Below are positions 5,120 through 44,960 of a DNA stretch of 64,000 nucleotides, piece after piece. Below the pieces are notes generated by a model, which searched no databases, had not been told where the DNA came from, and saw nothing but the letters and a program-made list of their open reading frames with translations. The stretch is taken from contig NC_135184.1 in NCBI RefSeq assembly GCF_041146795.1, positions 5,779,467 through 5,843,466 of the forward strand. Direction: 5' to 3'. Every line of letters starts with the position of its first letter. Position 1 is the stretch's first letter. The position numbers were made by a program, and so were the translations under genes. This DNA is from Maylandia zebra. Taxonomy: Eukaryota > Chordata > Actinopteri > Cichliformes > Cichlidae.

Positions 5120-6790
5120 CTATTTGAGCTTAATCAACTCAGCAGTGGCTCCATAATAATAAGGCGACAGTCCAGCATAGAGCGGCTGAGTGAATGTGGT
5201 CTGGACTCTGTGGAGGAGAGTCATGGTTTCAGAGACACTGTAGAAGGACAAAATACCTGCTCTGTGATCCAGGTACACTCCTACTCTGGAGGACTGAGGA
5301 CCTGAGACAGGAGTTTGGATGTTGTTGTACCAAAATGTATAACTGTTGTTGTTACAATCTAATGACCAAGATTTGTCATTACATCCAAATTTACATTCAT
5401 TACCCTCTCCTTTTCTGCTGATATTCTTGTATGCGACTGCTACATCAACTCCTTCCCCTCTCCACTCCACCTCCCAGTAACAACGTCCAGTCAGACTCTC
5501 TCTACTCAGGACCTGCCACCATCTAGTGAATCTGTCTGGATGATCAGAATAAGACTGTTGTTGTTTCATTACTGTTGCTTTTCTGTTCCCCTCTGATAAT
5601 AACAGATGTGTGTTTGCTGTGTTTGGATCCAGTGTGATTTCACATGAATATTTTAAGAATCCAGCTCTGGTCTTTGGCTCTGCTGGTGGATCTGACAGTA
5701 AAACATCCACTTCAGTGACTGTCAGTGAGATGTTTGTCCATTCCTCTCTCAGAATGTCCTGTAGTTTATCTCTGACCTCTGACACAGCTGCTGTCACATC
5801 CTCAAAGTAGCTCAGAGGACGGATATTGATGCTGGGTGAGTCTGTAGACTCACTGAGTGCTGACAGTGAGGGGTAGTTGTGTAGAAACTGGATGTGATCC
5901 TCTGTGTGTGAGAGCTGCTTCAGCTCAGCATCTTTCCTCTTCAGCTCAGTGATCTCCTGCTCCAGCTTCTCCTGAAGCTCTTTGACTCGACTCACTTCAG
6001 TTTCCTGCTGGGATCTGATCTGCTGCTTCACATCAGAGCTTCTTTTCTGGATGAGATGGATCAGCTCAGTGAAGATCTTCTCACTGTGCTCCACTGTTTG
6101 ATCAGCAGACTGATTGATGGCCTCCACCTCCTGTTGAAGCAGCTTCACATCTTTCTCTCTGTCCTGGATTCTCTGCTGGATGTTTTGTCGACTCACCTCC
6201 AGCTCTCTCTGCCTCTCAGTCCTTTCTGCTGCAGCTGAGACTGTGTCGTGGCCTTTATGTTCATCCACAGAGCAGAGATAACAGATACTCTGCTGATCAG
6301 TACGGCAGAACATCTTCATCACCTCATCATGACGAGAGCAGATGTTCTCCTGGAGCTTCTTGGAGGGCTCCACCAGCTTGTGTTTCTTGAATGAAGCTGC
6401 AACAATATTATGAGTCTGAAGGTGTTTCTCACAGTAAGATGCCAGACAGAATAAACAGGACTTGAAGGCTTTCATTTTTCTTCCAGTGCAGACATCACAG
6501 GCCACATCTTCAGGTCCAGCATAGCAGTGATCAGCAGGAGCAGCTTGGAGTCCAATCTTCTTCAGCTCCTCCACTAAATCTGCTAACATGGTGTTTTTCA
6601 TCAGGACAGGCCTCGCTGTGAAAGTCTGTCTGCACTGAGGGCAGCTGTAGATTTTCTTCTCTTCCTCTTCATCCCAGAAGCTTTTAATACAGTTCATGCA
6701 GTAGCTATGTCCGCAGGGAATAGTCACCGGATCCTTCAGTAGATCCAAACAGACTGAACAGCAGAATTTTGTTTGATCCATTTGATTCAT
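5120..6790 (-). CDS. TRIM E3 ubiquitin ligase, finTRIM/TRIM16-like (copy A)
   Basis: Single-exon gene for a 556-residue tripartite-motif protein. The RING (C11, C14, C26, H28, C31, C34, C50, C53) is complete. B-box 1 spans about 89-137 and B-box 2 about 151-181 (C151, H154, C162, D165, C170, C173, H178, H181). A glutamine/glutamate-rich coiled coil follows at about 190-300, then PRY/SPRY at about 375-556 (LDPNTAN, LTGRCYWEVEW). Such proteins transfer ubiquitin through RING, dimerise through the coiled coil, and use SPRY to bind targets, often viral; that role is inferred from the family. The start MNQMDQ is shared by all four copies and has an in-frame stop upstream. B-box 1 is type I (CTGRKMKAF), like copy C. 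A has one extra residue before the PRY (DPPAEPKT). The exact orthologue is unclear, so no symbol is given. Confidence 0.95.
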   Translation of the reverse strand: MNQMDQTKFCCSVCLDLLKDPVTIPCGHSYCMNCIKSFWDEEEEKKIYSCPQCRQTFTARPVLMKNTMLADLVEELKKIGLQAAPADHCYAGPEDVACDVCTGRKMKAFKSCLFCLASYCEKHLQTHNIVAASFKKHKLVEPSKKLQENICSRHDEVMKMFCRTDQQSICYLCSVDEHKGHDTVSAAAERTERQRELEVSRQNIQQRIQDREKDVKLLQQEVEAINQSADQTVEHSEKIFTELIHLIQKRSSDVKQQIRSQQETEVSRVKELQEKLEQEITELKRKDAELKQLSHTEDHIQFLHNYPSLSALSESTDSPSINIRPLSYFEDVTAAVSEVRDKLQDILREEWTNISLTVTEVDVLLSDPPAEPKTRAGFLKYSCEITLDPNTANTHLLLSEGNRKATVMKQQQSYSDHPDRFTRWWQVLSRESLTGRCYWEVEWRGEGVDVAVAYKNISRKGEGNECKFGCNDKSWSLDCNNNSYTFWYNNIQTPVSGPQSSRVGVYLDHRAGILSFYSVSETMTLLHRVQTTFTQPLYAGLSPYYYGATAELIKLK

Positions 6791-6831
6791 GTGCTGTGCC
6801 GTTTCACCGTCTCTCAGTGACTGTCAGACAG

Positions 6832-6841
6832 TTTCACTTCC
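6832..6841 (-). promoter_or_regulatory. ETS-IRF composite element upstream of TRIM A
   Basis: On the minus strand the sequence reads GGAAGTGAAA, a perfect match to GGAANNGAAA, 42 bp upstream of the ATG. IRF4/IRF8 with PU.1 bind such sites, and the GTGAAACTG context also resembles half an ISRE. It is identical in all four copies. It could lie in the 5' UTR, because a splice-acceptor-like TTTCCTGTAG sits about 70 bp further upstream. Confidence 0.45.
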
Positions 6842-8934
6842 TCTGAACAGAAACAACCTCTGTGCTCTGAAGGGAAACAGATCTCTGCTCTTGTTCACCT
6901 CCTACAGGAAATGAGGCTCACCAGCAACTGCATTTACACCATGTTGTTTAGACCCATCCTGATACAGACACATCTGTGAAGGGAGGCACTAAAGAAATAT
7001 TCTTACAGAGCGACCAAGAGCCAATCACATGATGCAGGGTGTGGTATGTTTGGTTACAGCATGCAGTAACAAGTCTGACCCAGTTAAACTTTAACAATTC
7101 ATTTCTTCATGGTGCAAATATATAGTAGACTCAGGAGTTTAACTCAGTTTTCTTGGCCTTTGTTTATCGTTTCATTTAAAATCTTAATGGGTAAAGATCA
7201 TCATAATTACATATGAAATTATATGTACAAATTATATGTTCCATTACACTATTAACAGCACAGATTATACAGCAAACATCAGATTCATGGATGGAGCCAG
7301 AGGCTAAATGACTGTTCAGTCCTCTTTAGGAAACGATCTTCATATGACGACAAACACGACAACAATCAGCTGTCAAACTGTACAAGAAGTTCACAGTAAT
7401 GTAAAAGAAGTTATATCACTTTATTTTTAAACGTACGCACTCAGGGTCAGGACTGAAGACACTGATCGAGAAAATACTCTAAATATAAATATTCACCTAA
7501 ACATTCAAAATTATTCAATTGCATGAAAAGAAATATGAACTCTCTACAATACTGGCTTCTGATTGGTTGAAAAAGCAGGTGCTGAACTTCAGAAGAGCTA
7601 AAGCTGCAAAACTGTGTAAACCCAGAGTGGATGCTGCCCTCTGACCTTTCAGAAGTACGATCTTTTTATGAAGACACAGAGGCAGAGTTATTATTCATCA
7701 CTTTAAAGATGATATTCGTTACATGTTCTTCACTCGTTGTCTAGTAAAGTCCAGAGAATGAGACACATGATTTCAAAACATACAGCTGCATGTTAGAGAT
7801 CACAGAGTTCTTCAGTCTTATGAGAACTCATGGAGACTAAATGTCAGACACATCAACAGTAAATGTCGTTCCTCCCCCCGTGAGTTTGTGTCCTCCACAC
7901 TTGTTTACACAAACATCTGAGGTTTGAACAGTGTGCAAAACCACATGTTACAAAGCTGCTGAGCTACTGAATACTGGAATATTTCATTCAATATCACCAT
8001 CTGACCAAAGGACAAACACAGAGAGGATTAGAGCGCCAAACTTTGTTTCAAACTGTTTCAGATTTTAGAGGCAAAAAGCAGAATTTCTACCTGGACAAAG
8101 AAATCAAAGCAGGAGAAAAACCAGCTTTTTACATTTATTCAAAGGCATTATGTGAATGTACTCTGAGCCACAGCCTCCTAAAGTAAATACATTTGATCAT
8201 CTAAACCAGACAGAGTCATGTTTTCAGCAGTGTCTGTATCCTCCATATAGACCATGCCATGGTCCACCTAGGGTGAGCAGGTGTCTGACTTTATGTGGGA
8301 CTACACAGCGCTCAGTCCTTGTTTGCCTGTGCCACACACACATTGAGCCAATGTCCAGTTTTTTTATTGACTCTAGTTTCTGTCGATCGGTAGGCCCACA
8401 AAAAAACCCTGTACAGGAAGTAGATTTCATCTCTCTGATAAAAGGAGTTCTAATCCCTGATCCTATGAGTCTGACCCAGTAGATAATATTGATATGATCA
8501 TATTTATGCCTTTGTTGTTTCACAAAGGGTTAAAAACATTCACAGGTTGGACTGTGGTTCTCCTTTTAGCGTCTCTGCTGGAATTTTAACTGTGAACCTC
8601 TTAGATCCAAACTTCTGAACTGCTCATCTCACAGAGGACAAAAGGGAAGAACCCCGAATCTCTTCTTCACCTCACTTTTATACCTGCTCACCCTTTCTCC
8701 CCCCTTCCCTCACTGGACGTCACATCTTCACACTTGGGCCAATCAGGTTGTTGACATTTGATCATCTGATGTGCACCCACACCTCATCTCTCTCTCTCTC
8801 TCTGACTTACAAGATTTAACACAAAGTTTAAACTTTAAAATCACTTCATTACATTTTCTTTGTTATTCTTAACACAGAAAATTCACATTCAAAAACTTAA
8901 CACAGAATAAAACAGAGTAGCCAGTAGTGGGACA

Positions 8935-9275
8935 TGGTTCCAGCAACTCTGATGGTGACGGCCCGTTTGAAGCTGAAGCTCCGGCACGTGTGTCAAAAAA
9001 TCAACACACTGCTTCAGAAACGCTGTGCTGAGGCTTGGTTTGACTGAACAGAGTCACGTGATCAATGACGTCTGAAGCTTCATTCAGCACGTCACTGCTT
9101 CAGTACCTGATTCAAAGATTTATAAGGAATTGAACCATTGGTGGGATTTGTGCTGTGTTTTGGTGATTTTGTGTGAGCGAATCAGTGTGTGACATAATTA
9201 TAGACATGGAGCCAGGAAGAGAGGACGCTCTGCCTGTTCCTCAATAAAAACCAGTTCATCAGCATTTCTGCTCCC
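8935..9275 (+). mobile_element. Possible hAT transposon 5' relic
   Basis: GAAGCTCCGGCACGTGTGTC, GCTTCATTCAGCAC and a short reading frame starting MEPGRE resemble the 5' part of teleost hAT elements, where a transposase start follows such GCTTC-rich DNA. No transposase domain follows. The same relic is in the other spacer at about 37180-37520. Confidence 0.3.
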
Positions 9276-9417
9276 AGGTCTAAAATGTACATAAGAAATA
9301 TGATGTACACATAATTATAATGATATAACTTATAGTATATTATATATAAACGTACCAGTCTGCTGGTTAATTACATAATCAGGTGGAGGCAGTGACCTCA
9401 CAACCTCCTATAAGCTT

Positions 9418-11340
9418 TAAGTTAAGGTTACTTTATTTATACCCACAGGTAAATTTGCTTTACAGAACAATGATAGCATTTGGCCTCCCTTCACAAACAC
9501 ACACACCTAATGAAACCTGACAAAACACATATTTTAATTAAACAAAGTGAATCAAATCAAAAACAATTCTTATTGAGTTCAGTGACATCAGCAGGGACAA
9601 AGCTGTTTTTATAATGCTTTGTCCTGCATCTTGGAACTAGAAACCTCCGTCCTGAAGAAAGAAGCTAAATCCACCCCGTAGAGGATGGGAACCATTTTTA
9701 AGGATTGATTAAGCATCTGTGGTACCTGTTTAGAGTACAGGGAGTCTAAACAGGCCTGTGACTCATCTATCAGACGACTGGACCATCTCACTCACTAATT
9801 CAGTCAATTTTTCTCTGTGACAGAGGTCTGACTGAACCATGGCACCAAACAAAAAGATAAAACAGACTCAATAAAAGAACAAGAAAACAAAGTTCAAATC
9901 TTTCGCTCAATGTGGAAATGAGCAAGTTTCCTGAGGCAGTAAAGGCACTGGTGACCCTTTTTACAGACCGATTTGCAATAAAAGTTCAGTTTTTCATTGA
10001 TTATGGTCCCAAGATATTTATATGATTGCACTTGCTCTATTTTCTGACCTTTAATTAAAGTGACTCTGTGCCCATTTAGTTGTTTCCTAAAATCAATAAC
10101 CATATCTTTTGTTTTAGATATGTTCAATTGGAGATAAGACTCCTCCCACCACTGAACAAAGCCATCAATGATTGGACTATGGTGAGTTTCACCCTCTTTC
10201 AGTAAGCTGACAATAACAAAGTCATCTGTAAATTTAATGATGGCCCTGTTTTCATATCTGCTCTGACACGTGTTTGTAAAGAGAATGAATAATAAGGGCG
10301 ATAAGAGACACCCTGGAGGAGAAGCTGTGGAGGAGAACACTGGGTCAGACAGAACCCCATTTATTCTCACTCTTTGTGACCTGTCAGTTAAAAGATCTAA
10401 AATCCAGCAAACCAGGTTTTTCCTGATTTCAAACTCTTCTAAAAGTCTTTTCATTAAAATATGGGGCTGTATTGTATTAAAAGCAGAAGAAAAATCAATG
10501 AAAAGAAGTCTTGCAAAAGTCCCTTTACTCTCTACATGTTTAAGAATCAGATTTAGTCCAAAGCGCGTCCTGCACTCCTCTGTTGGGCCTGTGCGCAAAC
10601 TGCATTGGATCCAGCTGATATTCAATCTCTTCCATAATCACATTTCTGATGATTTTTTCAGACTTTCATGACAACTCAGGTGAGGCAACAGGCCTGAAGT
10701 CATTCAGGACGTTTGGACGACTAGATTTAGGGACATGAACGACGACAGCTTCCTTCCAAAGCGAGGGCACATTTTGTATTTGAAAGGATTTATTGAAAAT
10801 AAGCTGAAATTTAGGACTGAGCTCTTTAGCACAAGATTTAATTAGGCGGCACTAATGTTATCAGGGCCCTGGCTCTTGTTCACATTAACTGTATGAAAGG
10901 CCTTTTGGACATCGCTGAGTTCAGTGATGAAGTGTTGAGTATCTTTCAGTTTCTGTTTCAGTTCAGAAGAACTAAAACGAGCATCAAGCATATTCAAATC
11001 TCTGTCTGACTTAAAACCGTCTACAATGATCTGACTGCTGCTCTGGGGATTTTGAAACCCTGATATGGTTTTCATACAAGTCCAGGCAGACTCAAAACGT
11101 TTTGCAGCAAATTTTCTTTCAAGAAGGTTTTTGTAGATCTGTTTTGCTTTCAAGAGCTCGATTTTCAAGTCTTTGGTGACTGCCTGAAAGTCAGTAACAG
11201 CCCCCTCTTTAAAAGCCTGTCTCTTTTTCCTTAAACAGGATTTGATGCATTTGGTGACCCATGGCTTATTGTTAGGGTACACTTTAGCACGCTTAAGGGG
11301 TATAATCATGTCTTTACAAAAACTGCATATGAGCTAACAT
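9418..11340 (-). mobile_element. 5'-truncated LINE (Rex1/L2/CR1-like), copy in A-B spacer
   Basis: Three consecutive minus-strand coding blocks belong to one LINE ORF2. The pre-RT linker is at 10842-11309 (NKPWVTK, KSQGPDNI). The reverse transcriptase at 9894-10625 shows FIDFSSAFNTI, the B motif SPPGCLLSPLLF and a catalytic FTDD. The post-RT tail at 9609-9791 includes WSSRLIDESQACLDSLYS. The endonuclease end is missing and the blocks lie in different frames, so this copy is dead. The 3' end lies near TTAAGGTTACTTTATTTATA. The same copy sits at the same place in the C-D spacer, so it inserted before that duplication. Confidence 0.85.
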
Positions 11341-13471
11341 CCACCAAAGCATCAAGGCTGAATAAAAACTTCCCAATCTGTAAATTGAAAACATTCCTGC
11401 AAGGTAAGCACAGATTCTTCTGACCACATGATTGATTGATGATAACATAATTTTTTCACCCCCCAAAAATTCACGTTCAAAGCAACATATCAGCCCGATA
11501 TCACACAGAACTGTCACATGACATCAAACACAAGCTGTCAGCTCTGCAGAGTGGGCAATCATAATGAAGCAGTTCATTATAAGCTGCAGACTCAAGCTGC
11601 TCTTCATATATTTGCCCACCAGATGTCACCAAAGAGGACTGTGATGAAAGCTTCGAGTAATGAACCGTTTTTCATTACAAGCTTGGCCAACTGACTACAA
11701 TCTACAATAAACTAATATGGCTTTTCAATCCTCTCTTCAATCACTTGGTACCACCAGGAACCTTTAAATGGGCACTCAAGCTGCCTGGAGACTGTTTTGT
11801 CGTGCACATCAGAGAAACCACAGGTAAGACAATCTTATCCAAAAGGTCAGTGTAACAGTATTGTTTTCCACCAGCTTAACCAAACTCCCCACACTAACTG
11901 AAATTTCTTTTCCCAGGCAAACATTAAACAGCAGCAGCTGGAAAACTGGAAAACCTAAAGCCAAATAATCAATAAAACATAACAAACTTTTGTATGAGTG
12001 AGTATTGATAAACTGAGCAGAATTAAACCTCAGTGAAACCACATATAAGTTCTGGTAACTGGCACATATTTATGTTTAATATGTTGTTTTATATTTTGAT
12101 CAGTTTCAGGTGTTTGTGCGACTGTGTTAACCATCAGTAAAACCACATATAAATCACACTTCTGTGTTTAACAATTACAACACTTGATGCTGTTTTTCTG
12201 ATTCAGGATTGTGTGTGTGATGAGTTGGCCACACAGTTCTTATCTTTCTGCTTCAGACACACACAAAACTGCCGAGGTTGAAGCTTCAGTCTCTTTCTAC
12301 CCCAGGTCTCACCACATTTCCAAAATGTAAACTCTGAGTCTCATAAGAAATGTGGTTCAAAAAGATGTGCTGATCTATGAATGCATCCTTACTGAAAGCT
12401 AAAGATGTCCAGCAGACAAAAACAGCAGCTGAATGAACAGTTATCATGAGCGAGTGTACAAACACTATCACAGGAAATAACAGAAATAAACTGTAGTTTC
12501 CATTTATACCTGTAGTATTTTTTCAGCTCCATGTCATCTTCCAATATGTCAAAATATGATTTCATTGTATCTTAAACAAATACAAACTTCTTTCTTCCCC
12601 CCAGAGAGCCAACAGTTTACTATCAGAACTGAGGCTGATCATTAACAGGGAGCAGCAGGTAACAAGGTCATCAGCAGTGGAGGAAAGTATGGAAGTAATA
12701 CTCAGCTTCATATTTGAAGATACTCGAGTATCTTAGCTGCAGGTCTGGAACAATGGTTTTATTTCCTTTCCCATTAAACATCTCACACAGCCCCTCATCT
12801 GTGACCCTTAGCAAACCCACTGGATATCTACCTGCACATAAAGGAGATCAGATCAGTTCCATCTAGAACAGCTGTAACAGGAAAATGCTGCTTACACTTT
12901 GATGCATCACTTTCAGTTTGTCATATAAGACAATATATCAGATTGAGGCATTATTTTCCTGCAGTGAGTAAATCTACTTTGTACTTTACTCTTTTCTTTT
13001 AGGTAAAGGCTCTAAACAGTACGTGTACACTGTGGAAATCCCATAAGAACGTCTCCTGAACTCTGAAAAATAACAAAACAAAGACTAAAAGGAGGTCATG
13101 GGTGCTGATGATGATGATGCTGATGATGATGAGGAGTAGCATGCATTTAAAAAGTGACTGATGTCCTAGAATACAACAGAACAGTGTCTCTACAAACTTA
13201 TGAAAACATGACAGTCTTGCATTAGTTTGTATTCTTATGATTTCAAAAAACGAGGGAAAAATCTCCTTGAAATGCACAATTCCTTTTTGTTATTTCTTAG
13301 TGTGTGACATATTTTATTGGCTTTATGATTGGTGCAAACAGTTTCCTGATTCATAATGGAAATAGATTTTAGACACAGGAGGAACACGCAGTGATCAGCA
13401 GGAGCAGCTTGGAGTCCAGTCTTCTTCACACTGAGGAGGGACATATATGCAGGAACAGTTGTCATAACTGT
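11341..13471. other. Duplicated spacer, distal part
   Basis: Nearly identical to 39593-41723, and from 12149 onward also to 30476-31797. No gene is recognised. It holds a GAT-type trinucleotide tract (13107-13133) whose length differs between copies, and a 41-bp fragment of TRIM coding sequence (13388-13428). Confidence 0.6.
13388..13428 (-). pseudogene. 41-bp TRIM coding relic 1
   Basis: These 41 bases are identical to TRIM coding DNA for KKTGLQAAPADHC (residues about 77-89, the RING to B-box linker). They lie in the same orientation as the genes and about 50 bp from the CTCF-like motif. Repeated at 31715-31755 and 41640-41680. Confidence 0.7.
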
Positions 13472-13476
13472 TACAA

Positions 13477-13489
13477 CCACCAGATGGCG
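13477..13489 (+). promoter_or_regulatory. CTCF-like core motif, site 2
   Basis: CCACCAGATGGCG, between gene A and gene B. See site 1. Confidence 0.4.
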
Positions 13490-14614
13490 AAAGAGTCCCA
13501 CTGCAACTTTAAGCCATGAAGGATGTGTCTTGATGTTTGCTTGTGATAAATCTGCTTTATGTGAGACTTTTTCAGAGAGTAACAGTAATATGTCTGATTA
13601 TATGTCTTTAATCAGTAAAGTCTCGCTTTGCTAGAAATAAATAAATAAATAATTGTAAACATGCAGCTGTATGTTAGAAGTCAAAGGGTCCTTAAGTCTT
13701 CTGTAAATTGACGGGGATCAAATGAAGGACACAAGTATCTGTTCTTACTCTAATAAATGCTGCTTTAATATCCAACAGACTATTTTCCTTCCTCATCAGC
13801 AGTAAACAGCTCGACTGCGTCTGTGCATTTGTGTCCTCCATACTTGTTTCCACAGACATCTCAGGCTTGATGCCACGATGCAGTGTAGAAACCTGACAAC
13901 CCTCTGACTCATGTTCAAATGTTCAAGGACATTTCTCAGCATCATGTATGACCCCTTTTTGACATTTGGACTTTCATTGATAATATTTGTGTTTCTGAGT
14001 CATTTTTGTGGAGACTTCTGTCCAACGTAGTGTCCAAATGAAGCCTGAAGCTTTTCTTCACCCTCTTGTCAGATGGTCAGCAACAAAACTCTGTTCCAAC
14101 CAATGTCTGATAAGAGATGAGACACAGCAGCTGAGCAAATGATCATTTCATGCTGAAGACATCCTCAGACAGAATTAAATACATACATAAACACAGCCTG
14201 GTGCCAATAACACAGCTAATGACACTGCTGTATCACTGGCTTTACTGATTAAAGACCATATCTGAAGGAAATCTTTGAACACAACAGAAAGTGACCTTTT
14301 AAACCTGCGACACTGATGCTGCATTCAAGGACCATTAAAAACATTTTAAAGAACTTAAGAACATCAAGAAAATGTGACTTGTTTCTCTGTAATGAAGCTG
14401 TTTTAGTGAAGAAAGTTGAAAGGTCACAGAGCGACTGCTGAATCTTCTGCTCTAAACATGAACTCTGAACTTTGTGATGCTTCAGGAGGAAAACTGCTTC
14501 AGTTATTCTCTCAGATTAGTTTCATATTTTCTGCATCAGATTTGAGTGAGATCCTGGAATGAAGACAGAAGAAAAGACTTTGTTCAAAGTTTGATTTATA
14601 GTCAAACCTTCCAG

Positions 14615-14620
14615 TTTATT
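14615..14620 (-). terminator. Poly(A) signal of TRIM B
   Basis: AATAAA on the minus strand at the place conserved in all four copies. Confidence 0.6.
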
Positions 14621-15047
14621 CACACAATAAAACATCAACACAATATATGAATTCATTCATTAAAATCACAGTTTTTCCTCATTTGTTTGATGATTTTGAC
14701 AAAAACAAACACAAACACACACACATGGTCTGCCATACTCATAAAGAGAAATGTCGACATTTTTCAAGACAAATATTCCAGAAACATTTAGAGGATAGAG
14801 AAGTTTACATTTTCATGTGGAGAAATATTTTAGTAAATCAAAATGATGATGAGCAGTGATAGCCTCCATAAACAGTCACAGGAAAGATCTCCTTTAAAAA
14901 CTCAGAAACATCAAGAGAACAACTAGAAGATGTGGAGGTACCACCCATAATGTTTGACTGACAGCTGATCTCTGTGCAGAAATGATGGAGAGAAAATAAA
15001 ATGAAACTAAAACACAGATTTAAACCCAAAATATGAAAGACGTCAGT

Positions 15048-16709: not shown

Positions 16710-16750
16710 GTGCTGTGCCGTTTCACCGTCTCTCAGTGACTGTCCGACAG

Positions 16751-16760
16751 TTTCACTTCC
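16751..16760 (-). promoter_or_regulatory. ETS-IRF composite element upstream of TRIM B
   Basis: GGAAGTGAAA on the minus strand, 42 bp upstream of the chosen ATG, identical to the other copies. Confidence 0.45.
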
Positions 16761-19820: not shown

Positions 19821-19851
<31 letters not shown>

Positions 19852-32950: not shown

Positions 32951-33377
32951 CACACAATAAAACATCAACACAATATATGAATTCATTCATTAAAATCACA
33001 GTTTTTCCTCATTTGTTTGATGATTTTGACAAAAACAAACACAAACACACACACATGGTCTGCCATACTCATAAAGAGAAATGTCGACATTTTTCAATAC
33101 AAATATTCCAGAAACATTTAGAGGATAGAGAAGTTTACATTTTCATGTGGAGAAATATTTTAGTAAATCAAAATGATGATGAGCAGTGGTAGCCTCCATA
33201 AACAGTCACAGGAAAGATCTCCTTTAAAAACTCAGAAACATCAAGAGAACAACTAGAAGATGTGGAGGTACCACCCATAATGTTTGACTGACAGCTGATC
33301 TCTGTGCAGAAATGATGGAGAGAAAATAAAATGAAACTAAAACACAGATTTAAACACACAATATGAAAGACTTCAGT

Positions 33378-35036: not shown

Positions 35037-37663
35037 GTGCTGTGCCGTTTCACCGTCTCTCAGTGACTGTCAGACAGTTTCACTTCCTCTGAACAGAAAC
35101 AACCTCTGTGCTCTGAAGGGAAACAGATCTCTGCTCTTGTTCACCTCCTACAGGAAATGAGGCTCACCAGCAACTGCATTTACACCATGTTGTTTAGACC
35201 CATCCTGATACAGACACATCTGTGAAGGGAGGCACTAAAGAAATATTCTTACAGAGCAACCAAGAGCCAATCACATGATGCAGGGTGTGGTATGTTTGGT
35301 TACAGCATGCAGTAACAAGTCTGACCCAGTTAAACTTTAACAATTCATTTCTTCATGGTGCAAATATATAGTAGACTCAGGAGTTTAACTCAGTTTTCTT
35401 GGCCTTTGTTTATCGTTCATTTAAAATCTTCATGGGTAAAGATCATCATAATTACATATGAAATTATATGTGCAAATTATATGTTCCATTACACTATTAA
35501 CAGCACAGATTATACAGCAAACATCAGATTCATGGATGGAGCCAGAGGCTAAATGACTGTTCAGTCCTCTTTAGGAAACGATCTTCATATGACGACAAAC
35601 ACGACAACAATCAGCTGTCAAACTGTACAAGAAGTTCACAGTAATGTAAAAGAAGTTATATCACTTTATTTTTAAATGTACGCACTCAGGGTCAGGACTG
35701 AAGACACTGATCGAGAAAATACTCTAAATATAAATATTCACCTAAACATTCAAAATTATTCAATTGCATGAAATGAAATATGAACTCTCTACAATACTGG
35801 CTTCTGATTGGTTGAAAAAGCAGGTGCTGAACTTCAGAAGAGCTAAACCTGCAAAACTGTGTAAACCCAGAGTGGATGCTGCCCTCTGACCTTTCAGAAG
35901 TACGATCTTTTTATGAAGACACAGAGGCAGAGTTATTATTCATCACTTTAAAGATGATATTCGTTATATGTTCTTCACTCGTTGTCTAGTAAAGTCCAGA
36001 GAATGAGACACATGATTTCAAAACATACAGCTGCATGTTAGAGATCACAGAGTTCTTCAGTCTTATGAGAACTCATGGAGACTAAATGTCAGACACATCA
36101 ACAGTAAATGTCGTTCCTCCCCCCGTCAGTTTGTGTCCTCCACACTTGTTTACACAAACATCTGAGGTTTGAACAGTGTGCAAAACCACATGTTACAAAG
36201 CTGCTGAGCTACTGAATACTGGAATATTTCATTCAATATCACCATCTGACCAAAGGACAAACACAGAGAGGATTAGAGCGCCAAACTTTGTTTCAAACTG
36301 TTTCAGAGTTTAGAGGCAAAAAGCAGAATTTCTACCTGGACAAAGAAATCAAAGCAGGAGCAAAACAAGCTTTTTACATTTATTCAAAGGCATTATGTGA
36401 ATGTACTCTGAGCCACAGCCTCCTAAAGTAAAGACATTTGATCATCTAAACCAGACAGAGTCATGTTTTCAGCAGTGTCTGTGTCCTCCATATAGACCAT
36501 GCCATGGTCCACCTAGGGTGAGCAGGTGTCTGACTTTATGTGGGACTACACAGCGCTCAGTCCTTGTTTGCCTGTGCCACACACACATTGAGCCAATGTC
36601 CAGTTTTTTTATTGACTCTAGTTTCTGTCGATCGGTAGGCCCACAAAAAAACCCTGTACAGGAAGTAGATTTCATCTCTCTGATAAAAGGAGTTCTAATC
36701 CCTGATCCTATGAGTCTGACCCAGTAGATAATATTGATATGATCATATTTATGCCTTTGTTGTTTCACAAAGGGTTAAAAACATTCACAGGTTGGACTGT
36801 GGTTCTCCTTTTAGCGTCTCTGCTGGAATTTTAACTGTGAACCTCTTAGATCCAAACTTCTGAACTGCTCATCTCACAGAGGACAAAAGGGAAGAACCCC
36901 GAATCTCTTCTTCACCTCACTTTTATACCTGCTCACCCTTTCTCCCCCCTTCCCTCACTGGACGTCACATCTTCACACTTGGGCCAATCAGGTTGTTGAC
37001 ATTTGATCATCTGATGTCCACCCACACCTCATCTCTCTCTCTCTCTCTGACTCACAAGATTTAACACAAAGTTTAAACTTTAAAATCACTTCATTACATT
37101 TTCTTTGTTATTCTTAACACAGAAAATTCACATTCAAAAACTTAACACAGAATAAAACAGAGTAGCCAGTAGTGGGACATGGTTCCAGCAACTCTGATGG
37201 TGACGGCCCGTTTGAAGCTGAAGCTCCGGCACGTGTGTCAAAAAATCAACACACTGCTTCAGAAACGCTGTGCTGAGGCTTGGTTTGACTGAACAGAGTC
37301 ACGTGATCAATGACGTCTGAAGCTTCATTCAGCACGTCACTGCTTCAGTACCTGATTCAAAGATTTATAAGGAATTGAACCATTGGTGGGATTTGTGCCG
37401 TGTTTTGGTGGTTTTGTGTGAGCGAATCAGTGTGTGACATAATTATAGACATGGAGCCAGGAAGAGAGGACGCTCTGCCTGTTCCTCAATAAAAACCAGT
37501 TCATCAGCATTTCTGCTCCCAGGTCTAAAATGTACATAAGAAATATGATGTACACATAATTATAATGATATAACTTATAGTATATTATATATAAACGTAC
37601 CAGTCTGCTGGTTAATTACATAATCAGGTGGAAGCAGTGACCTCACAACCTCCTATAAGCTTT
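35037..37663. repeat. Duplicated spacer upstream of TRIM C (proximal part)
   Basis: Near-identical to 6791-9415, including the old TRIM-unit ghost (about 35690-36200), the shared non-coding frames at 36401-36768 and the hAT-like relic. No gene. Confidence 0.85.
35078..35087 (-). promoter_or_regulatory. ETS-IRF composite element upstream of TRIM C
   Basis: GGAAGTGAAA on the minus strand, same place as in the other copies. Confidence 0.45.
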
Positions 37664-39592
37664 AAGTTAAGGTTACTTTATTTATACCCACAGGTAAATT
37701 TGCTTTACAGAACAATGATAGCATTTGGCCTCCCTTCACAAACACACACACCTAATGAAACCTGACAAAACACATATTTAGTAATTAAACAAAGTGAATC
37801 AAATCAAAAACAATTCTTATTGAGTTCAGTGACAGCAGCAGGGACAAAGCTGTTTTTATAATGCTTTGTCCTGCATCTTGGAACTAGAAACCTCCGTCCT
37901 GAAGAAAGAAGCTAAATCCACCCCGTAGAGGATGGGAACCATTTTTAAGGATTGATTAAGCATCTGTGGTACCTGTTTAGAGTACAGGGAGTCTAAACAG
38001 GCCTGTGACTCATCTATCAGACGACTGGACCATCTCACTCACTAATTCAGTCAATTTTTCTCTGTGACAGAGGTCTGACTGAACCATGGCACCAAACAAA
38101 AAGATAAAACAGACTCAATAAAAGAACAAGAAAACAAAGTTCAAATCTTTCGCTCAATGTGGAAATGAGCAAGTTTCCTGAGGCAGTAAAGGCACTGGTG
38201 ACCCTTTTTACAGACCGATTTGCAATAAAAGTTCAGTTTTTCATTGATTATGGTCCCAAGATATTTATATGATTGCACTTGCTCTATTTTCTGACCTTTA
38301 ATTAAAGTGACTCTGTGCCCATTTAGTTGTTTCCTAAAATCAATAACCCTATCTTTTGTTTTAGATATGTTCAATTGGAGATAAGACTCCTCCCACCACT
38401 GAACAAAGTCATCAATGATTGGACCGTGGTGAGTTTCACCCTCTTTCAGTAAGCTGACAATAACAAAGTCATCTGTAAATTTAATGATGGCCCTGTTTTC
38501 ATATCTGCTCTGACACGTGTTTGTAAAGAGAATGAATAATAAGGGCGATAAGAGACCCTGGAGGAGAAGCTGTGGAGGAGAACACTGGGTCAGACAGAAC
38601 CCCATTTATTCTCACTCTTTGTGACCTGTCAGTTAAAAGATCTAAAATCCAGCAAACCAGGTTTTTCCTGATTTCAAACTCTTCTAAAAGTCTTTTCATT
38701 AAAATATGGGGCTGTATTGTATTAAAAGCAGAAGAAATATCAATGAAAAGAAGTCTTGCAAAAGTCCCTTTACTCTCTACATGTTTAAGAATCAGATTTA
38801 GTCGAGTCAAAAGCGCGTCCTGCACTCCTCTGTTGGGCCTGCACGCAAACTGCATTGGATCCAGCTGATATTCAATCTCTTCCATAATCACATTTCTGAT
38901 GATTTTTTCAAAGACTTTCATGACAACTCAGGTGAGGCAACAGGCCTGAAGTCATTCAGGACGTTTGGACGACTAGATTTAGGGACATGAACGACGACAG
39001 CTTCCTTCCAAAGCGAGGGCACATTTTGTATTTGAAAGAATTTATTGAAAATAAGCTGAAATTTAGGACTGAGCTCTTTAGCACAAGATTTAATTAGGCG
39101 GCACTAATGTTATCAGGGCCCTGGCTCTTGTTCACATTAACTGTATGAAAGGCCTTTTGGACATCGCTGAGTTCAGTGATGAAGTGTTGAGTAACTTTCA
39201 GTTTCTGTTTCAGTTCAGAAGAACTAAAACGAGCATCAAGCATATTCAAATCTCTGTCTGGCTTAAAACCGTCTACAATGATCTGACTGCTGCTCTGGGG
39301 ATTTTGAAACCCTGATATGGTTTTCATACAAGTCCAGGCAGACCCCAAATTTTTTGCAGCAAATTTTCTTTCAAGAAGGTTTTTGTAGATCTGTTTTGCT
39401 TTCAAGAGCTCGATTTTCAAGTCTTTGGTGACTGCCTGAAAGTCAGTAACAGCCCCCTCTTTAAAAGCCTGTCTCTTTTTCCTTAAACAGGATTTGATGC
39501 ATTTGGTGACCCATGGCTTATTGTTAGGGTACACTTTAGCACGCTTAAGGGGTATAATCATGTCTTTACAAAACCTGCATATGAGCTAACAT
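37664..39592 (-). mobile_element. 5'-truncated LINE (Rex1/L2/CR1-like), copy in C-D spacer
   Basis: Duplicate of the LINE at 9418-11340. Coding blocks: 39094-39561 (linker), 38499-38921 (first half of RT with DPMQFACRPNRGVQDAL and FIDISSAFNTI), 38141-38605 (second half with FTDD), and 37856-38038 (tail). This copy keeps the RT start in frame where the A-spacer copy is shifted, but it has its own frame change in the middle. The two therefore decayed separately after duplication. Confidence 0.85.
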
Positions 39593-41723
39593 CCACCAAA
39601 GCATCAAGACTGAATAAAAACTTCCCAATCTGTCAATTGAAAACATTCCTGCAAGGTAAGCACAGATTCTTCTGACCACATGATTGATTGATGATAACAT
39701 AATTTTTTCACCCCCCAAAAATTCACGTTCAAAGCAACATATCAGCCCGATATCACACAGAACTGTCACATGACATCAAACACAAGCTGTCAGCTCTGCA
39801 GAGTGGGCAATCATAATGAAGCAGTTCATTATAAGCTGCAGACTCAAGCTGCTCTTCATATATTTGTCCACCAGATGTCACCAAAGAGGACTGTGATGAA
39901 AGCTTCGAGTAATGAACCGTTTTTCATTACAAGCTTGGCCAACTGACTACAATCTACAATAAACTAATATGGCTTTTCAATCCTCTCTTCAATCACTTGG
40001 TACCACCAGGAACCTTTAAATGGGCACTCAAGCTGCCTGGAGACTGTTTTGTCGTGCACATCAGAGAAACCACAGGTAAGACAATCTTATCCAAAAGGTC
40101 AGTGTAACAGTATTGTTTTCCACCAGCTTAACCAAACTTCCCACACTAACTGAAATTTCTTTTCCCAGGCAAACATTAAACAGCAGCAGCTGGAAAACTG
40201 GAAAACCTAAAGCCAAATAATCAATAAAACATAACAAACTTTTGTATGAGTGAGTATTGATAAACTGAGCAGAATTAAACCTCAGTGAAACCACATATAA
40301 GTTCTGGTAACTGGCACATATTTATGTTTAATATGTTGTTTTATATTTTGATCAGTTTCAGGTGTTTGTGCGACTGTGTTAACCATCAGTAAAACCACAT
40401 ATAAATCACACTTCTGTGTTTAACAATTACAACACTTGATGCTGTTTTTCTGATTCAGGATTATGTGTGTGATGAGTTGGCCACACAGTTCTTATCTTTC
40501 TGCTTCAGACACACACAAAACTGCCGAGGTTGAAGCTTCAGTCTCTTTCTACCCCAGGTCTCACCACATTTCCAAAATGTAAACTCTGAGTCTCATAAGA
40601 AATGTGGTTCAAAAAGATGTGCTGATCTATGAATGCATCCTTACTGAAAGCTAAAGATGTCCAGCAGACAAAAACAGCAGCTGAATGAACAGTTATCATG
40701 AGCGAGTGTACAAACACTATCACAGGAAATAACAGAAATAAACTGTAGTTTCCATTTATACCTGTAGTATTTTTTCAGCTCCATGTCATCTTCCAATATG
40801 TCAAAATATGATTTCATTGTATCTTAAACAAATACAAACTTCTTTCTTCCCCCCAGAGAGCCAACAGTTTACTATCAGAACTGAGGCTGATCATTAACAG
40901 GGAGCAGCAGGTAACAAGGTCATCAGCAGTGGAGGAAAGTATGGAAGTAATACTCAGCTTCATATTTGAAGATACTCGAGTATCTTAGCTGCAGGTCTGG
41001 AACAATGGTTTTATTTCCTTTCCCATTAAACATCTCACACAGCCCCTCATCTGTGACCCTTAGCAAACCCACTGGATATCGACCTGCACATAAAGGAGAT
41101 CAGATCAGTTCCATCTAGACAAGCTGTAACAGGAAAATGCTGCTTACACTTTGATGCATCACTTTCAGTTTGTCATATAAGACAATATATCAGATTGAGG
41201 CATTATTTTCCTGCAGTGAGTAAATCTACTTTGTACTTTACTCTTTTCTTTTAGGTAAAGGCTCTAAACAGTACTTGTACACTGTGGAAATCCCATAAGA
41301 ACGTCTCCTGAACTCTGAAAAATAACAAAACAAAGACTAAAAGGAGGTCATGGGTGCTGATGATGATGCTGATGATGATGATGAGGAGTAGCATGCATTT
41401 AAAAAGTGACTGATGTCCTAGAATACAACAGAACAGTGTCTCTACAAACTTATGAAAACATGACAGTCTTGCATTAGTTTGTATTCTTATGATTTCAAAA
41501 AACGAGGGAAAAATCTCCTTGAAATGCACAATTCCTTTTTGTTATTTCTTAGTGTGTGACGTATTTTATTGGCTTTATGATTGGTGCAAACAGTTTCCTG
41601 ATTCATAATGGAAATAGATTTTAGACACAGGAGGAACACGCAGTGATCAGCAGGAGCAGCTTGGAGTCCAGTCTTCTTCACACTGAGGAGGGACATATAT
41701 GCAGGAACAGTTGTCATAACTGT
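39593..41723. repeat. Duplicated spacer upstream of TRIM C (distal part)
   Basis: Near-identical to 11341-13471; holds the GAT-type tract and the third TRIM relic. No gene. Confidence 0.85.
41640..41680 (-). pseudogene. 41-bp TRIM coding relic 3
   Basis: Same fragment as at 13388-13428. Confidence 0.7.
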
Positions 41724-41728
41724 TACAA

Positions 41729-41741
41729 CCACCAGATGGCG
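41729..41741 (+). promoter_or_regulatory. CTCF-like core motif, site 4
   Basis: CCACCAGATGGCG, between gene C and gene D. Confidence 0.4.
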
Positions 41742-42867
41742 AAAGAGTCCCACTGCAACTTTAAGCCATGAAGGATGTGTCTTGATGTTTGCTTGTGATA
41801 AATCTGCTTTATGTGAGTCTTTTTCAGAGAGTAACAGTAATATGTCTGATTATATGTCTTTAATCAGTAAAGTCTCGCTTTGCTAGAAATAAATCAATAA
41901 TAAAATTGTAAACATGCAGCTGTATGTTAGAAGTCAAAGGGTCCTTAAGTCTTCTGTAAATTGACGGGGATCAAATGAAGGACACAAGTATCTGTTCTTA
42001 CTCTAATAAATGCTGCTTTAATATCCAACAGACTATTTTCCTTCCTCATCAGCAGTAAACAGCTCGACTGCGTCTGTGCATTTGTGTCCTCCATACTTGT
42101 TTCCACAGACATCTCAGGCTTGATGCCACGATGCAGTGTAGAAACCTGACAACCCTCTGACTCATGTTCAAATGTTCAAGGACATTTCTCAGGATCATGT
42201 ATGACCCCTTTTTGACATTTGGACTTTCATTAATAATATTTGTGTTTCTGAGTCATTTTTGTGGAGACTTCTGTCCAACGTAGTGTCCAAATGAAGCCTG
42301 AAGCTTTTCTTCACCCTCTTGTCAGATGGTCAGCAACAAAACTCTGTTCCAACCAATGTCTGATAAGAGATGAGACACAGCAGCTGAGCAAATGATCATT
42401 TCATGCTGAAGACATCCTCAGACAGAATTAAATACATACATAAACACAGCCTGGTGCCAATAACACAGCTAATGACACTGCTGTATCACTGGCTTTACTG
42501 ATTAAAGACCATATCTGAAGGAAATCTTTGAACACAACAGAAAGTGACCTTTTAAACCTGCGACACTGATGCTGCATTCAAGGACCATTAAAAACATTTG
42601 AAAGGACTTAAGAACATGAAGAAAATGTGACTTGTTTCTCTGTAATGAGGCTGTTTTAGTGAAGAAAGTTGAAAGGTCACAGAGCGACTGCTGAATCTTC
42701 TGCTCTAAACATGAACTCTGAACTTTGTGATGCTTCAGGAGGAAAACTGCTTCAGTTATTCTCTCAGATTAGTTTCATATTTTCTGCATCAGATTTGAGT
42801 GAGATCCTGGAATGAAGACAGAAGAAAAGACTTTGTTCAAAGTTTGATTTATAGTCAAACCTTCCAG

Positions 42868-42873
42868 TTTATT
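42868..42873 (-). terminator. Poly(A) signal of TRIM D
   Basis: AATAAA on the minus strand at the conserved position. Confidence 0.6.
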
Positions 42874-43301
42874 CACACAATAAAACATCAACACAATATA
42901 TGAATTCATTCATTAAAATCACAGTTTTTCCTCATTTGTTTGATGATTTTGACAAAAACAAACACAAACACACACACATGGTCTGCCATACTCATAAAGA
43001 GAAATGTCGACATTTTTCAATACAAATATTCCAGAAACATTTAGAGGATAGAGAAGTTTACATTTTCATGTGGAGAAATATTTTAGTAAATCAAAATGAT
43101 GATGAGCAGTGATAGCCTCCATAAACAGTCACAGGAAAGATCTCCTTTAAAAACTGAGAAACATCAAGAGAACAACTAGAAGATGTGGAGGTACCACCCA
43201 TAATGTTTGACTGACAGCTGATCTCTGTGCAGAAATGATGGAGAGAAAATAAAATGAAAACTAAAATACAGATTTAAACCCACAATATGAAAGACTTCAG
43301 T

Positions 43302-44960
43302 CTATTTGAGCTTAATCAACTCAGCAGTATCTCCATAATTTAACCAAAATGTTAGTCCAGCATAGAGCGGCTGAGTGAATGTGGTCTGGACTCTGTGGAG
43401 GAGAGTCATGGTTTCAGAGACGCTGTAGAAGGACAAAATACCTGCTCTGTGATCCAGGTACACTCCTACTCTGGAGGAACGAGGACCTGAGACAGGAGTT
43501 TCAATGTTGTTGTTCCGAAATGTATAACTGTTGTTGTAAAAATTTAATGACCAAGATTTGTCATTACGTCCAAACACACATTCACTCCCTCCTTTTCTGC
43601 TGATATTCTTGTATGCGACTGCTACATAAACTCCTCCCCCTCTCCACTCCACCTCCCAGTAACAACGTCCAGTCAGACTCTCTCTACTCAGGACCTGAAA
43701 CCAATTGGTGAATCTTTCTGGATGATCAGAATAATGTTGTGTTCTCACGTATGTTACTTTTCTGTTCTCCTCTGATAATAACAGCTGTTTGTTTGCTGTG
43801 TTTGGATCCAGTGTGATTTCACGTGAATATTGTAAGAATCCAGCTCTGGTCTTTGGCTCTGGTTGTGACAGTAAAACATCCACTTCAGTGACTGTCAGTG
43901 AGATGTTTGTCCATTCCTCTCTCAGAATGTCCTGTAGTTTATCTCTGACCTCTGACACAGCTGCTGTCACATCCTCAAAGTAGCTCAGAGGACGGATATT
44001 GATGCTGGATGAGTCTGTAGACTCACTGAGTGCTGACAGTGAGGGGTAGTTGTGTAGAAACTGGATGTGATCCTCTGTGTGTGAGAGCTGCTTCAGCTCA
44101 GCATCTTTCCTCTTCAGCTCAGTGATCTCCTGCTCCAGCTTCTCCTGAAGCTCTTTGACTCGACTCACTTCAGTTTCCTGCTGGGATCTGATCTGCTGCT
44201 TCACATCAGAGCTTCTTTTCTGGATGAGATGGATCAGCTCAGTGAAGATCTTCTCACTGTGCTCCACTGTTTGATCAGCAGACTGATTGATGGCCTCCAC
44301 CTCCTGTTGAAGCAGCTTCACATCTTTCTCTCTGTCCTGGATTCTCTGCTGGATGTTTTGTCGACTCACCTCCAGCTCTCTCTGCCTCTCAGTCCTTTCT
44401 GCTGCAGCTGAGACTGTGTCGTGGCCTTTATGTTCATCCACAGGGCAGAGATAACAGATACTCTGCTGATCAGTACGGCAGAACATCTTCATCACCTCAT
44501 CATGACGAGAGCAGATGTTCTCCTGGAGCTTCTTGGAGGGCTCCACCAGCTTGTGTTTCTTTAATTGAACCACATCATAATGAGGCTGAAGGTGTTTCTC
44601 ACAGTAAGAGACCAAACACACCAGACAGGATTTCACGGCTTTTAGCTTCATGCCAGAGCACAGATCACAGGCCACATCTTCAGGTCCAGCATAGCAGTGA
44701 TCAGCAGGAGCAGCTTGGACTCCAGTCTTCTTCAGCTCCTCCACTAAATCTGCTAACATGGTGTTTTTCACCAGGACAGGCCTCGCTGTGAAAGTCTGTC
44801 TGCACTGAGGGCAGCTGTAGATTTTCTTCTTTTCCTCTTCATCCCAGAAGCTTTTAATACAGTTCATGCAGTAGCTGTGTCCACAGGGAATAGTCACCGG
44901 ATCCTTCAGTAGATCCAAACAGACTGAACAGCAGAATTTTGTTTGATCCATTTGATTCAT
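43302..44960 (-). CDS. TRIM E3 ubiquitin ligase, finTRIM/TRIM16-like (copy D)
   Basis: 552 residues; RING, two B-boxes, coiled coil and PRY/SPRY complete. B-box 1 is type II as in copy B, and the RING end (CRQTFTARPVLVKN) is closest to A. D has the most distinct PRY/SPRY: YSREITLD in place of YSCEITLD, TYVRTQHYSDHPERF with a shorter loop, NWFQVLS, RKGGSECVFGR, FRNNNIETPV and AGLTFWLNYGDT. The coiled coil is the same as in the other copies. D is the most upstream gene of the array in transcription direction, and its upstream DNA leaves the shared homology at about 45262. Function is inferred as for copy A. Confidence 0.95.
   Translation of the reverse strand: MNQMDQTKFCCSVCLDLLKDPVTIPCGHSYCMNCIKSFWDEEEKKKIYSCPQCRQTFTARPVLVKNTMLADLVEELKKTGVQAAPADHCYAGPEDVACDLCSGMKLKAVKSCLVCLVSYCEKHLQPHYDVVQLKKHKLVEPSKKLQENICSRHDEVMKMFCRTDQQSICYLCPVDEHKGHDTVSAAAERTERQRELEVSRQNIQQRIQDREKDVKLLQQEVEAINQSADQTVEHSEKIFTELIHLIQKRSSDVKQQIRSQQETEVSRVKELQEKLEQEITELKRKDAELKQLSHTEDHIQFLHNYPSLSALSESTDSSSINIRPLSYFEDVTAAVSEVRDKLQDILREEWTNISLTVTEVDVLLSQPEPKTRAGFLQYSREITLDPNTANKQLLLSEENRKVTYVRTQHYSDHPERFTNWFQVLSRESLTGRCYWEVEWRGGGVYVAVAYKNISRKGGSECVFGRNDKSWSLNFYNNSYTFRNNNIETPVSGPRSSRVGVYLDHRAGILSFYSVSETMTLLHRVQTTFTQPLYAGLTFWLNYGDTAELIKLK

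Follow-up and report, generated by a model that had tools for sequence, protein, structure and literature searches.

A finTRIM-like gene array in Maylandia zebra with divergent coding islands, a near-invariant coiled coil and apparent short-tract exchange among copies

Four intronless TRIM genes in two duplicated blocks

The window, a 64,000-nucleotide stretch of Maylandia zebra contig NC_135184.1, carries four full-length, intact, intronless finTRIM-like TRIM open reading frames, designated A to D, all of which lie on the minus strand and within two duplicated blocks:

5120..6790, minus strand: TRIM gene A, single exon, 556 residues (open reading frame list and Pfam)
15048..16709, minus strand: TRIM gene B, single exon, 553 residues counted from the ATG (open reading frame list and Pfam)
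33378..35036, minus strand: TRIM gene C, single exon, 552 residues (open reading frame list and Pfam)
43302..44960, minus strand: TRIM gene D, single exon, 552 residues (open reading frame list and Pfam)
3658..17013, no strand: duplicated block AB, 98.4% identical to 31915-45264
31915..45264, no strand: duplicated block CD, 98.4% identical to block AB

The listed open reading frame of gene B extends to 16817, past its ATG at 16709. RING, B-box, TRIM_CC, PRY and SPRY exceed the Pfam cut-offs in all four genes, with the finTRIM domain order of RING, B-box, coiled coil and PRY/SPRY (B30.2), and we take the N-terminus to resemble that of ftr. In a search confined to the PDB, the best chains for gene A are TRIM25 (2.1e-63) and TRIM16 (2.5e-40). 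No relatives were found in plasmid, viral-contig or GTDB collections. The motif GAAA-N2-GAAA is absent from the upstream stretches scanned, which contain two matches with a one-base spacer.

Fourteen further copies with distinct coding sequences lie beside the window, upstream of genes A to D, bringing array I to 18 copies, which span about 250 kb and are all in minus-strand orientation; a large cluster in one orientation is a finTRIM trait. Array II, about 1 Mb away, contributes seven copies. Among the matches listed, at least 40 on contig 18 are near-full-length and fall on both strands; B and D are not among them. The analysis used permutation tests together with codon models, implemented in Python.

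Divergence among the four genes falls into coding islands

The segments compared are as follows:

6389..6790, minus strand: RING to B-box1 island of A (residues 1-134), 46/399 variable sites among the four genes
16311..16709, minus strand: RING to B-box1 island of B, from the same variable-site count
34635..35036, minus strand: RING to B-box1 island of C, from the same count
44562..44960, minus strand: RING to B-box1 island of D, from the same count
5747..6370, minus strand: frozen B-box2 and coiled coil of A (residues 141-348), 2/642 variable sites among the four genes and low silent divergence to array II
15669..16292, minus strand: frozen B-box2 and coiled coil of B, from the same count and array II comparison
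33993..34616, minus strand: frozen B-box2 and coiled coil of C, likewise
43920..44543, minus strand: frozen B-box2 and coiled coil of D, likewise
5120..5680, minus strand: PRY/SPRY island of A with hypervariable patches, from variable sites and codon models
15048..15605, minus strand: PRY/SPRY island of B, from variable sites and codon models
33378..33932, minus strand: PRY/SPRY island of C, from variable sites and codon models
43302..43859, minus strand: PRY/SPRY island of D, from variable sites; for two of its segments, none of 27 other copies is a close match

In the linker and PRY/SPRY, 73 of 610 sites vary among the four genes, compared with 17 of 1381 in the 3′ flank (Fisher P = 5e-24). 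The region from RING to B-box1 forms a second divergent island (46 of 399 sites; P = 4e-18). The preliminary description did not mention this island. B-box2 and the coiled coil vary at only 2 of 642 sites, and the near-identity previously claimed for the four proteins from B-box2 to the linker is borne out by residues 141-366, where three positions vary (174, 319 and 351). Clustered differences had also been described in PRY/SPRY. The named clusters are found at alignment codons 405-413, 419-426, 460-470 and 541-550, with further patches at 392-401 and 478-494, and variable and invariant codons form 49 runs where 70.3 are expected (P = 0.00005, four genes). Faster change in SPRY than in spacer between A and C, likewise noted before, was recovered: one SPRY bin holds 9 differences in 94, whereas spacer bins mostly hold 0 or 1 per 100, with one at 5.

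Silent sites in the islands are raised as well. Between B and D, 11.2 of 123 silent SPRY sites have changed against 0.85 expected from spacer (P = 2e-9); between A and C the values are 4 of 121 against 0.83 in SPRY (P = 0.01) and 4.5 of 34 against 0.23 in RING (P = 1e-4). The preliminary description had held that synonymous and spacer divergence equal to SPRY replacement divergence would speak against its reading. In pairs of genes A to D, divergence in SPRY is indeed similar at silent (3-9%) and replacement (6-11%) sites, but that of the spacer is far lower than either.

Sites that divide the four genes two against two favor different pairings along the coding sequence: AD|BC at 5 of 5 sites in RING, AC|BD at 27 of 27 in B-box1, and no single pairing in linker plus SPRY, where the split is 5:4:4. 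Silent changes adjoining replaced codons are in excess among the four copies (7 of 9, P = 0.003) and lose significance among 18 (10 of 17, P = 0.085). Because this adjacency signal weakens with more copies, it was dropped as proof of loop-sized conversion tracts, which are not proven.

Two arrays share one pool of variants

The wider genome accounts for this pattern better than the window by itself. Among the 18 copies of array I, gene A matches U07 exactly at codons 405-413 but U09 and U14 at 422-426, B matches U11 at 405-413, and C matches U05 at 541-550; exact matches were found for some loops of A, B and C and for one of D. Segments 405-416 and 541-556 of D have no close donor among 27 other copies.

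Arrays I and II share 80 polymorphisms and have 15 fixed differences, the excess of shared over fixed sites that is a hallmark of interlocus conversion. Fourteen of the 15 fixed differences lie in codons 1-13 and one at codon 71, with none in codons 72-556. By permutation, the arrays are not differentiated in B-box1 (P = 0.55), codons 135-348 (P = 0.27) or codons 371-500 (P = 0.30). They do differ in codons 14-60 (0 of 5000 permutations) and 349-370 (P = 0.0002), so mixing is incomplete in places. Silent divergence between the arrays is 0.003 in the coiled coil (codons 191-348) compared with 0.553 in codons 1-13. Coiled-coil silent sites are nonetheless able to change, since the contig-3 group differs from array I there by 0.077. 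Within array I, coiled-coil silent codons show only a trend toward deficit (1 versus 4.2 expected at the flank rate, P = 0.08), and for this reason we base the claim of coiled-coil homogenization on the comparison between arrays.

The flanks of the two arrays are mostly unalignable: alignment of the 3′ flank covers no more than 277 of 1400 bases, at 77%. Array II shows the same island pattern as array I. The mean difference among the flanks of four of its copies is 0.14%, against a dS of 0.032 in SPRY and 0.18 in B-box1.

Linkage decays over tens of bases

Linkage decays on an overall scale of about 10-60 bases. In RING to B-box1, r2 falls from 0.62 below 10 bases to 0.05-0.06 beyond 60, and in SPRY it falls from 0.18 to background beyond 10 bases. 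A PHI-like test gives only P = 0.037 for SPRY, where repeated parallel substitution could be an alternative source of low linkage. In the 3′ flank (pi 0.9%), recurrent mutation should be rare. Among 15 of the 18 copies, 52% of 122 pairs of informative flank sites more than 120 bases apart are incompatible. Site incompatibility with linkage decay at low divergence, another hallmark of interlocus conversion, is thus present. In the seven copies of array II alone, decay is unclear (P = 0.088).

Together, these comparisons show that recently duplicated units, near-identical in their flanks, contain coding segments with much older silent sites, and that variants common to copies and to both arrays reassort over tens of bases. 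The four genes probably belong to a large intronless finTRIM-like family on one chromosome, evolving as a shared pool.

Model-dependent evidence for selection in PRY/SPRY

Comparison of models M1a and M2a gives 2dL of 40.5 for PRY/SPRY in four copies and 240.8 in 18 copies, with omega2 of 8.6 on 19% of codons, with the caveat that a single tree is assumed and that M2a can be inflated by recombination. The result remains significant when each half of PRY/SPRY is given its own tree (2dL 142.4 and 93.0). Positive selection in B30.2, a finTRIM trait, is present under the one-tree assumption, and diversifying selection in PRY/SPRY is supported in a model-dependent manner. With a single ratio, omega across the four SPRYs comes to 1.46, indistinguishable from 1 (P = 0.17), and pair counting gives a piN/piS of 0.68 for the C-terminal segment with the most variation (541-556). 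The four coiled coils contain only two changes, too few to estimate omega (fitted value at an extreme, P = 0.10).

Greater divergence in coding sequence than in spacer had been taken to suggest selection or conversion. By itself it is not evidence of selection here, as RING to B-box1 also exceeds spacer with a one-ratio omega of 0.30-0.40. Nor are codons with omega above 1 confined to SPRY loops, as had been predicted; a few occur in RING and B-box1. A SPRY binding face of the TRIM5alpha kind would place the variable sites on surface loops. The structure model of PRY/SPRY, built from four near-identical sequences, is poor (pLDDT 42.8), and by its strand assignments positions with at least three states are equally frequent in strands (14 of 82) and elsewhere (18 of 104; P = 1).

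Explanations for the pattern

The preliminary description offered selection or conversion as alternatives. Both seem to be needed, with strong evidence for conversion, and evidence for selection from M1a-M2a subject to the one-tree caveat; conversion from paralogues with coiled-coil homogenization, which it had also proposed, agrees with the silent divergence, shared loops, two-array pool and linkage decay. From one genome, we judge it probable (roughly 0.8) that dozens of copies undergo frequent short-tract conversion together with diversifying selection on loop variants. Interlocus conversion is indicated by the older silent sites in the islands, the sharing across arrays and the reassortment at tens of bases. 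Such conversion would move coding pieces from gene to gene, evening out the coiled coil and, within each array, the flanks. Diversifying selection would retain alternative residues at PRY/SPRY patches and at a few RING and B-box1 residues, and the selected patches would thereby escape homogenization and recombine into new combinations. The PRY/SPRY loops might bind varied, probably viral, ligands, with RING, B-box2 and the coiled coil as a common ubiquitin-ligase and oligomerization scaffold.

A stronger version, in which the array serves specifically to generate diversity in the germline through unusually frequent, loop-sized conversion in coding regions, is unlikely. If true, the effector scaffold would stay constant while loop combinations differed from fish to fish, as an innate parallel to antibody repertoires built by conversion.

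Also unlikely is a history of old duplication in which flanks and coiled coil were homogenized while selection alone guarded old island variants, with no transfer of new variants into copies. M2a-marked sites do fall in the islands, and flanks are near-identical within each array. However, exact loop haplotypes occur in differing combinations, and sharing between arrays with mostly unalignable flanks implies that the variants themselves were transferred. This alternative departs from the favored explanation chiefly in emphasis.

Diversifying selection on point mutations that arose once the duplications had occurred, the copies exchanging little or nothing, would suit the significant M2a result and the 22 replacement changes in 389 A-C SPRY sites, where 2.7 are expected from spacer. 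We reject this as a sole explanation and consider it very improbable, because silent divergence in SPRY, RING and B-box1 is raised above spacer too; B and D differ in B-box1 codons 100-134 by four silent changes and no replacement, and the arrays share 80 polymorphisms. Locally raised, hypermutation-like change at both ends of the coding sequence would lift silent and replacement changes in the same islands, as observed, but it is still harder to credit: variants are shared exactly between copies and arrays, indels in the aligned coding sequences of A to D comprise whole codons, and SPRY codons 501-540, lying between raised segments, have a silent divergence of 0.016. Least credible is misassembly of two haplotypes of one locus in tandem as AB and CD, for which their noncoding divergence (62/8991, 0.69%) would suit heterozygosity but against which, within the assembly sequence, the regions beyond the blocks differ at both ends and the upstream region holds 14 more copies, each distinct in its coding sequence.

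Conversion coupled with selection would leave dozens of near-identical antiviral-type TRIM genes alike in core and surroundings and very different in the parts likely to bind targets. The data suggest that fast change lies in loop combinations, not in single loops. In immune gene families, positive selection is often confused with the import, by conversion, of older sequence. The two can be told apart here: flanks within an array act as a clock, and the pair of arrays, mostly unalignable in their flanks, gives a natural control for exchange. Selection scans that rely on a single tree are unsafe for such TRIM clusters.

Comparison with known systems

A literature search of titles and abstracts, covering few subscription papers, found no report of comparable exchange within an array of intronless finTRIM genes. 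The comparisons below draw on the available portions of the cited papers, among which a cichlid study merely mentions duplicated finTRIMs (PMC3944005). In teleost finTRIM (ftr) genes, van der Aa et al. (2009; PMC2657112) report TRIM16 and TRIM25 as nearest mammalian relatives, same-orientation clusters, intronless medaka copies in 47 of 55 cases, and positively selected sites in B30.2 along with a few in RING/B-box. The present genes are similar in their RING-B-box-coiled coil-B30.2 order, TRIM16/TRIM25 likeness, clustering, intronless copies and selected sites in B30.2 and, more sparsely, RING/B-box. In that study GARD placed a single breakpoint in the B30.2 of zebrafish group A, and the word "conversion" is absent from its main text as available; here, by contrast, pervasive exchange at tens of bases is indicated by flanks, the second array and the decay of linkage. 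Zebrafish btr (TRIM39-like) genes, a different TRIM group, similarly combine a recombination signal with selection in B30.2, having GARD breakpoints inside B30.2 and positive selection in two of three segments (PMC3137616).

In zebrafish NLR-B30.2 genes, conversion keeps NACHT alike within groups, B30.2 is exchanged across groups, and hypervariable regions are under positive selection (Howe et al. 2016; PMC4852459). The likeness would lie in a homogenized conserved part, an exchanged B30.2 and selected hypervariable regions; the proteins differ, and the inference there uses domain-wise dS and trees where ours uses flanks and linkage. In Arabidopsis RPP8, loci about 2 Mb apart share polymorphism through intergenic conversion, with balancing selection (MacQueen et al. 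2019; PMC6771003). Both systems have polymorphism common to distant loci, through intergenic conversion in RPP8 and probably here as well, but RPP8 comprises three plant loci analyzed with population data, whereas the TRIM arrays comprise dozens of animal loci in one genome.

Four tandem finTRIM-like genes

The four TRIM genes are each carried in a duplicated unit:

5120-6790, minus strand: TRIM gene A, intact single-exon ORF
15048-16709, minus strand: TRIM gene B, intact single-exon ORF
33378-35036, minus strand: TRIM gene C, intact single-exon ORF
43302-44960, minus strand: TRIM gene D, intact single-exon ORF

RING, B-box, TRIM coiled-coil, PRY and SPRY domains score above Pfam cut-offs in all four, and among solved structures gene A matches TRIM25 and TRIM16 best; the single predicted model was poor. 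PMC2657112 names TRIM25 and TRIM16 as the closest mammalian relatives of finTRIMs, and places the whole ORF in one exon in 47 of 55 medaka finTRIM genes. On features such as these, A-D are putatively named finTRIMs.

Block AB (3658-17013) is duplicated as block CD (31915-45264) with 98.4% identity. Noncoding divergence between the blocks is 0.69% (62/8991), with 0.81% (30/3699) in the LINE-bearing part, and over ∼1450 bases of 3′ flank every pairing of the four units shows a difference of 0.6-1.0%. LINE-like open frames occupy both spacers (9894-11309 and 38141-39561), and the frame at 9894-10637 matches Pfam RVT_1.

The preliminary description held that the coiled coil is frozen while PRY/SPRY diverges beyond the spacer, and the alignment bears this out: 2 of 642 sites vary among A-D in B-box2 and the coiled coil, versus 73 of 610 in the linker and PRY/SPRY. 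Its four PRY/SPRY loop clusters are present, together with extra variable patches at alignment codons 392-401 and 478-494. These variable patches may be comparable to the variable regions of TRIM5alpha. A second divergent island, from RING to B-box1 (46 of 399 sites variable), had been overlooked.

Copies and fragments elsewhere in the genome

A DNA search of the 962-Mb genome (window at contig 18, 5779467-5843466) gave at least 40 near-full-length matches (the best 40 of 721 candidates), a lower bound since B and D are absent from those listed; all listed lie on contig 18, 4.10 to 5.82 Mb. PRY-domain matches number at least 150 (the best 150 of 746 candidates), with clusters among those listed on contigs 3, 6, 12, 18, 22 and 23, among others. 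The upstream 200 kb (5569001-5769000) holds 14 further full-length copies, with the ATG intact in 13 and replaced by GTG in U12; these and A-D constitute array I in all counts. Two comparison sets were taken from the listed PRY matches: array II, seven copies at 4.2-4.6 Mb of contig 18, six oriented opposite to the window's genes and one (L029) in the same direction, and a contig-3 group of three. Counts exclude two more copies: L046, located between the upstream 200 kb and the window, and L047, at 4.98 Mb.

Window segments 1-3045, 17671-23619, 24275-29249 and 52315-53827 are repeated at 96-98% in the upstream 200 kb, so the duplicated segments are larger than the gene units; 1379-2878 also recurs within the window at 52331-53831. 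A protein kinase domain fragment lies at 21300-21764, minus strand (Pfam Pkinase 1.2e-11; weak PDB kinase matches).

An isolated 41-base fragment, identical to bases 227-267 of the B and C CDS (RING/B-box1 linker), occurs on the minus strand in the noncoding 3′ flanks of B, C and D (13388-13428, 31715-31755, 41640-41680) and has seven matches within the upstream 200 kb; it resembles a templated insertion. Some 0.5 kb upstream of genes in array II lies a 73-base fragment of the coiled coil (CDS 676-748, 95% identity), with six occurrences among the DNA-search matches listed:

L043:115-187, 73-base coiled-coil fragment
L044:123-195, 73-base coiled-coil fragment
L045:114-186, 73-base coiled-coil fragment

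The encoded C-terminal loop of L046 looks doubled, and U01 (contig 18, 5574265-5575950) carries an 8-residue insertion near codon 480 that resembles the adjoining segment; both might be products of imprecise recombination.

Probable selection on the divergent islands

The site models used here take one tree for all sites, and for that reason all their omega values are indicative. For PRY/SPRY in the four copies, the M1a-M2a comparison gives 2dL 40.5, with omega2 9.2 on 21% of codons; the one-ratio omega, 1.46, does not differ significantly from 1 (P = 0.17). In the 18 copies of array I, 2dL reaches 240.8 and the one-ratio omega 1.52 (P = 0.0019), and M1a-M2a is significant in both halves of the domain pair, each with its own tree. 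Omega above 1 had been expected in SPRY only; the site models do place it in PRY/SPRY, but RING-B-box1, with a one-ratio omega of 0.30-0.40, also has a minor set of codons above 1 (55, 64, 129 and 132-134 over 0.95 in the site model). Zebrafish finTRIMs likewise have selected sites in RING-B-box, according to PMC2657112. Pair counts put piN/piS at 1.59 for codons 371-500, 0.16 for 500-540 and 0.68 for 541-556; the ratio also exceeds 1 in codons 61-99, 191-348 and 349-370, segments with very low silent counts.

Selection acting on point mutations does not suffice as the full cause, as silent sites are raised within the islands and the favoured pairing of genes shifts along the gene. Silent divergence between B and D is 11.2/123 in SPRY versus 0.85 expected from the spacer, and 4/56 versus 0.39 in the B-box1 region; between A and C it is 4.5/34 versus 0.23 in RING and 4/121 versus 0.83 in SPRY, with no elevation in the A-C B-box1 region (1/55, P = 0.32). 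Segments with raised silent divergence coalesce earlier than the duplicated units bearing them. RING favours A with D and B with C (5 sites), B-box1 favours A with C and B with D (27 sites over 105 bases), and the linker and SPRY split 5:4:4 among pairings.

Probable exchange between copies and arrays

Within array I, loop haplotypes are held in common by partners that change from loop to loop: A, for example, equals U07 at codons 405-413, and U09 and U14 at 422-426. Gene D has no close donor among 27 other copies at codons 405-416 (nearest, 9 differences) or 541-556 (nearest, 11 differences).

Arrays I and II have 80 shared polymorphisms and 15 fixed differences, counts in which within-locus polymorphism and between-locus differences are not separable, all copies being from one genome. 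Fourteen fixed differences fall in codons 1-13 and one at codon 71, with none in 72-556. Silent divergence between the arrays is 0.553 in codons 1-13 and 0.003 in the coiled coil; it about equals that within array I in B-box1 (0.176 vs 0.217) and codons 371-500 (0.060 vs 0.056). Codons 14-60 and 349-370 are differentiated. In the 3′ flanks no more than 277 of the 1400 bases can be aligned (77% identity), and in the 5′ flanks tested 41 bases. The contig-3 group is distinct: within codons 135-348, 34 fixed differences set it apart from array I and 34 from array II, and its coiled-coil silent divergence from array I is 0.077; silent sites there are therefore able to change.

Array II replicates the pattern of array I, with near-identical flanks and divergent PRY/SPRY and B-box1. 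The 3′ flanks L039-L042 (genes L030, L031, L032 and L034) diverge by 0.14% on average; mean dS and dN in PRY/SPRY of these genes are 0.032 and 0.059, and mean dS in B-box1 is 0.18.

Linkage decays over short distances. In the RING to B-box1 island r2 is 0.62 for sites less than 10 bases apart and 0.05-0.06 for sites separated by more than 60 (PHI-like P = 0.0005); in SPRY it starts at 0.18 and is already at background past 10 bases (PHI-like P = 0.037), a signal to which parallel substitution may contribute. SPRY decay is not clear in the seven copies of array II alone (P = 0.088). The cleanest sign of exchange comes from the array I 3′ flank, where parallel adaptive change is not expected and a pi of 0.9% should leave little room for recurrent mutation. 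There, of 122 pairs of informative sites separated by over 120 bases, 52% are incompatible (18 sites in 15 of the 18 copies; U06, U11 and U13, with interrupted or shorter flanks, are omitted). Support for loop-sized conversion tracts is mixed.

Comparison with known systems

On the grounds of shared variants and flanks, the intronless TRIM array appears to be a single pool that recombines almost freely and combines a frozen scaffold with hypervariable patches. Positive selection on the finTRIM B30.2 domain was already known (PMC2657112), as was the joint action of conversion and selection in the NLR-B30.2 genes of zebrafish (PMC4852459) and in RPP8 of plants (PMC6771003). What is new here is the nucleotide-level anatomy of a pool-like intronless TRIM array, with flank controls.
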